35,754 nt of DNA, from contig DASYTI010000102.1 in NCBI GenBank assembly GCA_036002485.1, positions 1 to 35,754 of the forward strand, given 5' to 3'. The position numbers were made by a program, and so were the translations under genes. This document shows, one piece after another, positions 16,385-19,058 of this stretch (position 1 is its first letter; each line of letters starts with the position of its first letter). The stretch comes from Candidatus Methylomirabilota bacterium (GTDB lineage: Bacteria > Methylomirabilota > Methylomirabilia > Rokubacteriales > CSP1-6). The notes below the pieces were generated by a model. The model did no database searches. It saw only the letters and a program-made list of their open reading frames with translations, and had not been told where the DNA came from.

Positions 16385-16717
16385 ATGCCGCCCCTCATCA
16401 ACGCGGAGGCCTACACGACGCTTGCGGGCGCCCTGGACGAGCTCGCGCGTCGCGGATTCACCGAGCGCTTCCAGGTCTTCGACGGCGGGCTTCGCGCGGT
16501 GGACGGCGGACAGACCATGCGGCCGAAAGACCTGGTGATCCGCGAGTACTATCGCTTCGAGGGCATCTCGGATCCCGACGACATGGCCATCCTCTACGCC
16601 ATCGAGAGCACGAGCGGGGTGCGCGGCACCCTGGCCGACGCCTTCGGCGTGTACTCGGATCCCGCCACGAGCGCGGTCATGGAAGATGTCCCCATTCGCG
16701 CGAACGGCTCCCCCTAG
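16385..16717 (+). CDS. Small conserved protein (often mislabelled phosphoribosylpyrophosphate synthetase)
   Basis: 110 residues, cytoplasmic, without PRPP-synthetase motifs. It fits a compact family seen in Bacteroidetes and soil bacteria with the pattern L-x(3)-GFTERFQ near residue 23-29, then YRFEGISDPDDMAILYAIES and GVRGTLADAFGVYSD, where the Asp-Asp and Tyr-Ala-Ile-Glu segments are the conserved core. Function is unknown and the database name attached to relatives is misleading. It lies 18 bp after the acetolactate synthase-like gene, probably as the third cistron. Its TAG stop shares the palindrome CTAG (16714-16717) with the TAG stop of the convergent XRE gene. Confidence 0.8.
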   Translation: MPPLINAEAYTTLAGALDELARRGFTERFQVFDGGLRAVDGGQTMRPKDLVIREYYRFEGISDPDDMAILYAIESTSGVRGTLADAFGVYSDPATSAVMEDVPIRANGSP

Positions 16718-17571
16718 GCGTCTGTCCGAGTTCCTGCCTCTCGGGCGAGACGGCGCATCAGGGCCTCGCTCCCCTCGTCGGCCGGGAAAAAGGCCTCCAC
16801 CCGCAGCTCGTGCAGCGTGATGTCATAGGGGACGCCAAGGCTCGTCAGCGTCGAGAAGAACTTCAGGTGGAAATCGTCCCGGGCCAGCTCCACGGCGAGG
16901 AAGGGCGCGGTGGAGGCGTCGAGGTCCAGCTTGCGCCAGTGGTGCGGCACGTCCGGGTAGGAGAGCAGCTCGTCGAGGAGCCGGCCGATCTCCGGATCTC
17001 CCCGCAGCAAGTCCCGATGAAGCCATTGGATGAGGGCGGCCGCCGTCGCCTCCCAGTTCACGATGTACGGGCGGACTCCCCGGGGATGATAGAAGAGCCG
17101 CATGGCATTGGGCGGCCCCAGGGTCGCGGCCTTGGTGGGGTCGAGGAAAAGACCCATGACTCGCTGCATGCCTTCATTGCTCATCAGGATATTCCAGTGG
17201 CCATCGACCACGAGGGCGGGGAAGGGCTCCTGCTGGCGCAGCATGAAGTCGAGGGCCCGGCGCACCTGGGTCATCTCGGGCGCTTCGAGCCCTCGCTCCA
17301 GATACACGGGCGCGTAGCCCGCGGCCAGGAGCAGCTCGTTGCGGCCGCGCGGCGGCACGTCGAGCACGCGGGCGAGGAGGAGGACCATCTCCCGGCTCGG
17401 CTTGGCGCGCCCGGTCTCCATGAAGCTCAGGTGACGCGAGGAGATCTCCGCCTCCACGGCCAGGGTGAGCTGGCTCATCCGGCGGCGCTCGCGCCACAGG
17501 CGGAGCAGGGGTCCCAGCGCGTTCTCCGCGCCCCTCTTGCGCTTCGGGCCTGCCGCCCGCGCTCGCGCCAT
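16714..17571 (-). CDS. XRE-family transcriptional regulator with MmyB-like ligand-binding domain
   Basis: 285 residues. A basic N-terminal arm precedes a Cro/C1-type helix-turn-helix (about 20-75: LRLWRERRRMSQLTLA, then ISSRHLSFMETGRAKPS). The rest is the MmyB-like (MLTR) ligand-binding domain with its usual LVVDGHWNILMSN and DDFHLKFFSTLTSLGVPYDITLHELRVEAFFP segments. Members bind small hydrophobic ligands in a PAS-like pocket and often regulate an adjacent oxidoreductase gene. A TAGACT hexamer sits 7 nt before the ATG (possible leaderless start). A perfect palindrome at 17607-17623 lies just upstream, suggesting autoregulation and control of the divergent thioesterase-dehydrogenase pair. Confidence 0.93.
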   Translation of the reverse strand: MARARAAGPKRKRGAENALGPLLRLWRERRRMSQLTLAVEAEISSRHLSFMETGRAKPSREMVLLLARVLDVPPRGRNELLLAAGYAPVYLERGLEAPEMTQVRRALDFMLRQQEPFPALVVDGHWNILMSNEGMQRVMGLFLDPTKAATLGPPNAMRLFYHPRGVRPYIVNWEATAAALIQWLHRDLLRGDPEIGRLLDELLSYPDVPHHWRKLDLDASTAPFLAVELARDDFHLKFFSTLTSLGVPYDITLHELRVEAFFPADEGSEALMRRLAREAGTRTDA

Positions 17572-17606
17572 GCCCGGGAGTCTACACCGCTCATCAGAGC
17601 AGGGAC

Positions 17607-17623
17607 ATTACCTCAGAGGTAAT
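17607..17623. promoter_or_regulatory. Perfect 8-1-8 palindrome, likely operator of the XRE regulator
   Basis: ATTACCTC-A-GAGGTAAT is a perfect inverted repeat with one central base, lying in the 111-bp gap between the XRE gene and the divergent thioesterase gene. If the XRE message starts at or near its ATG (TAGACT stands 7 nt before it), the palindrome covers about -36 to -52, overlapping or abutting the -35 site. It is AT-richer than its surroundings. This is the classic position for an autoregulatory operator of an HTH regulator; binding is inference. Confidence 0.65.
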
Positions 17624-17682
17624 TGAGCTCTGCCCGGGGCCGCTCCATCATGCTCCGTGATCAGCGAAAGGAAGGTGCCCTG

Positions 17683-18084
17683 ATGCCGATGGATGCCGCC
17701 GCCGTCTCCGACCTCTTCAGGGGAACCCTCTCCGAGCTACTGGGTATCCGCATCGTCGAAGCCACCCCGGACCGGGTGGTCGCTGAGCTCGACTACAGAG
17801 ACGAGCTGACCACCGTGGGGGGGAGCCTCCACGGCGGCACCCTCATGGCCTTGGCCGACACGATCGGCGCGGTGGCGACCGTGCTCAACCTGCCCGCGGG
17901 TGCCCGTACCACCACCCTCGAGTCCAAGACCAATTTCTTCGCGGCCGGCCGCTCCGGAACGGTGCGCGCGGAGACGACCGCGCTTCACCGAGGCAAGCGG
18001 ACCATGGTCTGGCAGACGCGCGTCACCAATGACGCCGGGCGCCTGCTGTCGCTCACGATTCAGACCCAGATGGTCCTGACATGA
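17683..18084 (+). CDS. PaaI-family hotdog-fold thioesterase
   Basis: 133 residues from ATG 17683 (GGAAGG upstream). The hotdog-fold signature is clear: VGGSLHGGTLMALADT around residues 45-60, with His50-Gly-Gly at the start of the central helix as in PaaI/YdiI-type acyl-CoA thioesterases. It is followed by the strand segment TLESKTNFFAAGRSG and the long terminal strand WQTRVTND. It would hydrolyse an aromatic or acyl-CoA thioester in the cytoplasm. Its stop overlaps the start of the hydroxyacid dehydrogenase by ATGA (18081-18084), so the two are translationally coupled. An in-frame TTG at 17623 could extend it by 20 residues but lies inside the palindrome region. Confidence 0.9.
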   Translation: MPMDAAAVSDLFRGTLSELLGIRIVEATPDRVVAELDYRDELTTVGGSLHGGTLMALADTIGAVATVLNLPAGARTTTLESKTNFFAAGRSGTVRAETTALHRGKRTMVWQTRVTNDAGRLLSLTIQTQMVLT

Positions 18085-19058
18085 AGGTGGGCTTCGCCGG
18101 GCCATTCTCGGTCCGGCTCGCGGATCGAGTGCGGCGTCACCTGGACATCGAGTGCGAGATGATCCTGGCCGACGAGGCCGGTATCGCCTGCCGCCTTCCG
18201 GAGGTCGACGTCCTCGTCACGCTGGCCTTCACGCGCGAGATGGGCGCGGCGGGCGCGCGACTCAAGCTCGTGCAGGTGCCCGGGGCGGGGCTGGACCGGA
18301 TCGATCGCTCCGCGCTCCCCGCCGCCACCTTGCTGGCCAATGCCTACAACCACGAGGTCGGCATCGCCGAATACGTGATGGGCGCCATGCTGACCCTGAG
18401 CCGAGACCTCTGTCGGCTCGACGCGGCCCTCCGGCGGGGACGCTGGGAGAGCCCATGGGTTCCGGGGGCCGAGCCGCCGCCGACATGGCCGGAGCTGGCC
18501 GGCAAGACGCTGGGCATCCTGGGATATGGCCGCATCGGCCAGCACGTGGCACGCCGGGCCCGCGCCTTCGACATGACGATATGGGCCATGCGCCAGAGGC
18601 CGACGCGAGAGGACGGGCAGGGCCTCGCGTTCCTCGGCGGGCCGGAAGCGCTCGACGAGATCCTGAGGCGCGCCGACTACCTGGTGGTCACGGTGCCCCT
18701 GACCGAGGCCACCCGTGGTCTCCTCGGCGCGCGGGAGCTCGGGCTCATGAAGCCCACGTCAGTGCTCATCAACGTGGCCCGCGCGTCCATCGTCGACGAG
18801 GACGCGCTCTATCGGACGCTCCGCCAGCGGACCATGGCCGGGGCCGCCCTCGACGTCTGGTATCGCTATCCGACCAGCGGGGAGCCGACCTTTCCCTCGC
18901 GTCACCCATTCCACGAGCTGCCCCACGTGCTCATGACGCCGCATGTGTCCGGCTGGACCGAGGGCACCATGGAGGGGCGGGCCATGCTCGTGGCGGAGAA
19001 CATCGGGCGCGTGGCGCGGGGCGAGCCCGTGTCCAACCTGATTCCGCGAATCGCCTAG
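18081..19058 (+). CDS. D-2-hydroxyacid dehydrogenase family protein with unusual active site
   Basis: 325 residues, NAD-binding motif GYGRIG (148-153), catalytic Arg234 (NVARAS) and catalytic His288 (MTPHVSGWT). The loop that normally carries the catalytic Glu (DVFxxEP) reads DVWYRYP (258-264), so the Glu position is Tyr263. Asn90 in NAYNHEVGIAEY lies where NAD-dependent formate dehydrogenases have their substrate-binding Asn. Those enzymes also lack the Glu (they use Gln), so this protein belongs to a divergent branch; at 325 residues it is shorter than true formate dehydrogenase. Glu268 nearby may take over. It overlaps the thioesterase by 4 bp. Reaction: probably reduction or oxidation of a 2-oxo/2-hydroxy acid. 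Confidence 0.9.
   Translation: MKVGFAGPFSVRLADRVRRHLDIECEMILADEAGIACRLPEVDVLVTLAFTREMGAAGARLKLVQVPGAGLDRIDRSALPAATLLANAYNHEVGIAEYVMGAMLTLSRDLCRLDAALRRGRWESPWVPGAEPPPTWPELAGKTLGILGYGRIGQHVARRARAFDMTIWAMRQRPTREDGQGLAFLGGPEALDEILRRADYLVVTVPLTEATRGLLGARELGLMKPTSVLINVARASIVDEDALYRTLRQRTMAGAALDVWYRYPTSGEPTFPSRHPFHELPHVLMTPHVSGWTEGTMEGRAMLVAENIGRVARGEPVSNLIPRIA

Follow-up and report, generated by a model that had tools for sequence, protein, structure and literature searches.

A 17-bp palindrome is very probably the operator of an MltR-type regulator between two predicted divergent promoters in Candidatus Methylomirabilota

Analysis of the divergent gap between an XRE regulator gene and a thioesterase gene of Candidatus Methylomirabilota bacterium suggested that the 17-bp palindrome located there very probably serves as operator for the MltR regulator (HTH_31 + MLTR_LBD) encoded next to it, as judged from sequence comparison. 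Both genes lie in a 35,754-nt stretch of DNA, hereafter referred to as the window, whose relevant features are listed in Table 1. We consider it highly likely that the palindrome would act as a single MltR operator at the dyad of two promoters, governing both transcripts. The first-pass annotation had proposed an operator for an MmyB/MltR-type regulator, and this was strongly supported by conservation beside orthologues, by the single site found per genome, and by the way the site covaries with the MltR recognition helix. The identity of the operator, its reader, the predicted promoter geometry, and the autoregulatory layout all appeared strongly indicated.

Table 1. Predicted regulatory features and genes around the palindrome (positions in the window).
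Feature	Position	Strand	Basis or remarks
Operator (predicted), 17-bp palindrome ATTACCTCAGAGGTAAT	17607–17623	.	Sequence, conservation, covariation, architecture
MltR-type XRE regulator (HTH_31 + MLTR_LBD)	16714–17571	minus	ATG at 17571; PF17765 1e-30; best PDB fold match 3pxp
Recognition-helix codons, residues 45–53	17413–17439	minus	Helix limits from structure model; F50 covaries with operator bases 3/15
Putative −10 TAGACT, regulator promoter	17579–17584	minus	7 nt before ATG; conserved at +31 to +36 from operator centre
Putative −35 TGTCCC (weak), regulator promoter	17602–17607	minus	Overlaps operator by one base; position kept in relatives
Putative −35 TTGAGC, thioesterase promoter	17623–17628	plus	Overlaps operator by one base
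Putative −10 CATCAT, thioesterase promoter	17646–17651	plus	Mirror position of regulator −10
Shine-Dalgarno-like AAGGAAGG of thioesterase	17668–17675	plus	Sequence; identical in L006
Hotdog (PaaI-like) thioesterase, probable target	17683–18084	plus	4HBT; conserved start ATG 17683, also in L006
D-2-hydroxyacid dehydrogenase, probable second target	18081–19058	plus	2-Hacid_dh; overlaps thioesterase stop

The palindrome had been described as exact, with 8+8 arms around one base, and as positioned at −36 to −52 from the XRE start codon, within the divergent gap that precedes the thioesterase; both descriptions proved correct. It was the sole match with up to three mismatches in the window, where shuffled sequences gave an expectation of 0.03. 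The scan for further copies that had been suggested as a check returned one perfect TTACCTCNGAGGTAA in the 4.45-Mb genome, together with three 2-mismatch matches, which equals the level of the reversed-pattern control. The same genome contained one MLTR_LBD gene, adjoining the palindrome.

The XRE protein contained an N-terminal helix-turn-helix (HTH_31, 4.4e-11) and the PF17765 ligand-binding domain (107.4 bits vs. a curated cut-off of 26.3), the domain order also found in MltR/MmyB-like proteins (PF17765) such as Caur_2278 (PDB 3pxp) and MmyB of Streptomyces coelicolor. A phmmer search with the single protein returned no PDB relative, but a profile search did, and 3pxp was also the top-ranked match to the PAS-like fold of the structure model (pLDDT 88; E 4.9e-12, whole-chain TM about 0.51). 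In 3pxp, the carboxylate of a fatty-acid-type ligand is held by Asn176, Tyr227, and Tyr258; by an alignment read by eye, Asn176 corresponds to a Leu in the group of the window regulator, and both tyrosines fall outside the aligned stretch. Close relatives of the window were found in Candidatus Rokuibacteriota, including a regulator with 92% identity (L006). At its other end, the regulator gene converges with a 110-residue ORF of an ALDH/acetolactate-synthase-like operon, with a 4-base overlap between the two stop codons (16714–16717); this ORF had no Pfam match.

Conservation beside orthologues, which the first-pass annotation had named as a check, was assessed over the 12 positions of the operator core. 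Of 72 related loci gathered, 71 were scanned (L006–L076, leaving aside the fragmentary L077), 70 of which had sufficient DNA upstream of the regulator. In 35 of these 70 upstream stretches, the core was present with at most one mismatch, compared to 13 of 1842 control stretches of equal length within the same loci, and most of the 13 look like genuine displaced copies. Such displacement was seen in all 12 Massilia/Duganella-type loci, where ATTACCTGGGAGGTAAT or a near form was located 0.5–1.5 kb upstream of the regulator, and similarly in L031 and L064. The site was conserved upstream of MltR relatives in Rokuibacteriota, alpha-, beta-, and gammaproteobacteria, and actinobacteria. No site was detected upstream of MltR in six Catenulispora-type loci with a normal recognition helix or in L027, L028, and L066, and L060 was cut; likewise, no good site was located near MltR in 16 of the 46 loci of the independent set described below and in several loci of the discovery set.

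Among the relatives whose genomes were scanned, some of which probably entered twice (identical coordinates), ATTACCNNNNNGGTAAT was present in 11 of 24, and in nine of these 11 the exact sequence occurred once per genome with coordinates at MltR; G082 had two sites and G074 three, and the reversed-pattern control gave 0 of 24. For an alphaproteobacterial order, 20 genomes were scanned with ATTACSNNNNAGGTAAT; 16 of them contained it, at 18 sites in total, and 15 of these sites were located at MltR. The four genomes without it comprised two with diverged operators and two without a regulator match, the latter being the only MltR-less genomes among the 76 of this order. The presence of an MltR match in the other 74, many at >83% identity, suggests an important role there (G149 belongs to this order). 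A one-armed pattern, ATTACCTNNNNGGTAAT, gave 12 sites in 60 relatives of the window, six at MltR and six elsewhere, with one in the control. The six sites elsewhere (G001, G009, G012, G032, G034) differ from the MltR-adjoining ones in the inner base of their second arm (C or T rather than A or G); two in G032 are identical and lie on different contigs. In the Catenulispora genome G074, the fetched MltR relative L050 has no site beside it, and the three exact sites are located elsewhere (contigs C178, C201, C335), perhaps beside paralogues.

The operator was also found to covary with the recognition helix, corresponding to residues 45–53 of the predicted structure, in which residue 50 is located. 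In the discovery set, regulators with Phe50 had the TA operator form in 36 cases and another form in four, vs. zero and five for Cys50/Tyr50; every regulator of the latter type was accompanied by G at operator base 3 and C at base 15, and this symmetric GC form occurred with no Phe50 regulator. In an independent set, in which 142 alphaproteobacterial and 150 Burkholderiales genomes yielded 46 loci, 30 of them with at most one core mismatch, the corresponding counts were 25 : 1 and 0 : 4. Fisher p-values of 1.0e-4 and 1.8e-4 for the two sets, respectively, are inflated by relatedness, and the tables are restricted to loci whose core has at most one mismatch (omitting 36 of 81 discovery and 16 of 46 independent loci). 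The four exceptional Phe50 loci of the discovery set include L012, where the match is a chance one and the real operator lies 723 bases upstream, and the fragment L092, both of which were counted; in the independent set, L134 has Phe50 yet a GC operator. In a tree computed from the protein sequence minus the helix, residue 50 changes six times, with good branch support for three of these changes. Nearly all pairings show the operator changing along with the residue, the events being too few for a sign test. A further rule, linking Lys46 to ATTAAG in the left half, was dropped, as it held for five of seven Lys loci in the discovery set and none of three in the independent set.

Promoter architecture was read around 65 aligned sites and the reading was then repeated in the independent set. 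A −10-like TA...T element on the regulator strand was found at +31 to +36 from the operator centre in 32 of 45 discovery and 19 of 30 independent loci (at least two of three bases), and a mirror element on the opposite strand in 18 of 45 and 18 of 30, respectively; both exceeded all other shifts. The −35 hexamers lie 17 bp upstream of the −10 elements, each with one base common to the operator, and scored about 2.9 and 3.6 of 6 in relatives against a background of 1.3, a score inflated by the shared base. A stronger −35 on the divergent side was significant in the discovery set but not in the independent set, and was dropped. The regulator started with ATG or GTG at +43/+44 in 23 of 45 discovery and 17 of 30 independent loci, and a start codon at 43 or 44 was counted 39 times in the 72 relatives (thinned), the distance being 44 bp in the window. 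Since this codon follows the −10 element by 6–7 nt, a leaderless mRNA is implied, and with the start point predicted in this way the regulator mRNA is probably leaderless. The divergent gene usually starts farther out, with a Shine-Dalgarno sequence. In L039, L056, L081, L086, and L133, the start codon of the divergent gene is also positioned 43–44 bases from the operator centre, so that both mRNAs could be leaderless in such loci. A strict consensus promoter scan of the window returned no promoter, which suggests that the predicted promoters are weak or activator-dependent.

According to the proposed mechanism, an MltR dimer would read one ATTACC(T) half-site per recognition helix, with half-sites about 10 bp apart. 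This fits the prediction for the 3pxp dimer, in the consulted text of that study (PMC3406030), that its recognition helices are separated by about 10 bp on a two-fold site. The operator would form the dyad of two back-to-back sigma-70-like promoters and, because each −35 includes one operator base, one bound dimer would have its centre some 44 bp upstream of each predicted start point. From there, it would jointly govern the regulator's own mRNA and the thioesterase–dehydrogenase operon, with the PAS-like domain presumably rendering this control dependent on a small ligand.

Three other origins of the palindrome were weighed against the MltR operator. Its occurrence by chance has a negligible probability, given the expectation for the window, and was refuted already by conservation across phyla. 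An RNA hairpin, acting as terminator or attenuator, is barely more probable: a 7-pair stem could form in the strand, but its fold was no better than that of shuffled sequences (z −1.3), a T run was absent and, since both predicted start points lie downstream of the palindrome, neither mRNA would include it. This reading was therefore rejected. The near matches away from MltR would be expected if the palindrome belonged to another, global regulator and stood beside MltR by chance or through a shared regulon. That is very unlikely, because most genomes with the site have a single one, at MltR, because the operator covaries with the MltR recognition helix, and because the site is missing from both genomes of the alphaproteobacterial order that lack MltR.

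The divergent arrangement of regulator and neighbour recurred in relatives and points to the neighbour as a probable target. Among 14 Rokuibacterial loci with upstream DNA (L078–L082, L084–L090, L094, L095), the thioesterase was the divergent neighbour in eight and the dehydrogenase was present in six. In the alphaproteobacterial locus L106, dehydrogenase, MltR, operator, and thioesterase occur together; of the matching loci of its order, 30 were fetched, and the thioesterase was located beside MltR in all 30 and the dehydrogenase in 17, these loci being short. Judged from gene order, MltR, thioesterase, and dehydrogenase thus form a recurring unit, and their recurrence in this order makes control of both enzymes credible. 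The control of the two enzymes predicted in the first-pass annotation gained indirect support, as the thioesterase is placed at the mirror promoter and recurs with MltR, in part together with the dehydrogenase; both enzymes would then be targets in vivo.

Across lineages, divergent partners differed widely. Of 56 partners, hand-picked by Shine-Dalgarno sequence or start position from 75 loci (95 candidate frames; 19 loci omitted), 27 belonged to one similarity cluster of four-TM proteins of about 135 residues without a Pfam match, the commonest partner; eight were thioesterases, seven SnoaL_2 proteins, and two each hydroxyacid dehydrogenases, alpha/beta hydrolases, and ABM proteins, the remaining groups being small. 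Members of the four-TM family include those of L021, L024, L026, and L043, among others, and that of L186 (2389–2868), where the gene lies between operator and thioesterase. The suggestion that the ligand is the substrate of the two enzymes was rejected as a family-wide rule, since, with partners so varied, the substrate of these two cannot serve as ligand throughout the family.

Regarding the sign of control, we lean slightly towards ligand-gated activation from a position like that of lambda OR2, to which we give about an even chance. At OR2-PRM, as predicted for the window, a 17-bp operator of a lambda-type HTH dimer lies next to the −35 that serves the leaderless gene of the regulator itself. 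The cI start codon is 42 bp from the centre of OR2 (from coordinates), vs. about 44 bp between operator centre and predicted starts in the window. CI activates PRM from OR2 and the cI mRNA is leaderless, according to the text available for PMC8630535. The window differs in having one operator rather than three, promoters mirrored on both sides, and a regulator with a PAS-like ligand-binding domain; by this analogy, activation would be a guess. Occlusion is nearly as likely, with MltR as a repressor whose dimer would cover the upstream edge of both −35 regions until the ligand releases it. Divergent autoregulators are often repressors, the operator has one base in common with each −35, and both hexamers score far above background in relatives, in part through that shared base. 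On the other hand, relatives keep the operator–promoter distance exact to the base on both sides, a precision needed more by contact-dependent activation than by occlusion, which argues for contact with RNA polymerase as made by lambda CI at OR2. Moreover, MmyB acts as an activator, and ligand-activated DNA binding was expected in the 3pxp study, as far as the portion of PMC3406030 consulted states. A mixed effect on the two promoters is improbable and the least favoured. The broadest version of activation is less likely than not: a family-wide, mirrored OR2-PRM-like, ligand-gated switch, in which one dimer on one palindrome would touch RNA polymerase at both promoters simultaneously and activate its own leaderless mRNA and the divergent metabolic or membrane gene, with base-fixed spacing in at least three phyla and residue 50 reading base 3.

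Divergence from a putative target was reported, in the accessible part of PMC3406030, for 15 of 16 MmyB-like paralogues of S. coelicolor, as for the window regulator; their partners are SDR/MDR or antibiotic genes, whereas those in the window are a thioesterase and a 2-hydroxyacid dehydrogenase. The excerpts consulted of PMC7532634 describe MsrR of Corynebacterium glutamicum as an XRE protein with a divergent mfs gene and an autoregulated repressor whose site lies in overlapping divergent promoters. MsrR differs in its thiol-based sensing, and the same excerpts report very low similarity to MltR. No written consensus operator of MltR/MmyB-like regulators was found in the literature searched, including by consensus sequence, and no 3pxp operator sequence in the text seen of PMC3406030; the supplements of a survey of 223 XRE motifs (PMC12565409), represented here by part of its text, may contain one. 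MltR/MmyB-like regulators are numerous. With a concrete candidate site of 17 bp, a rule relating helix residue to operator base, and predicted promoters at fixed spacing, binding, target gene, and sign of control become directly testable in one short DNA fragment, and the site is usable to find MltR targets in other genomes.
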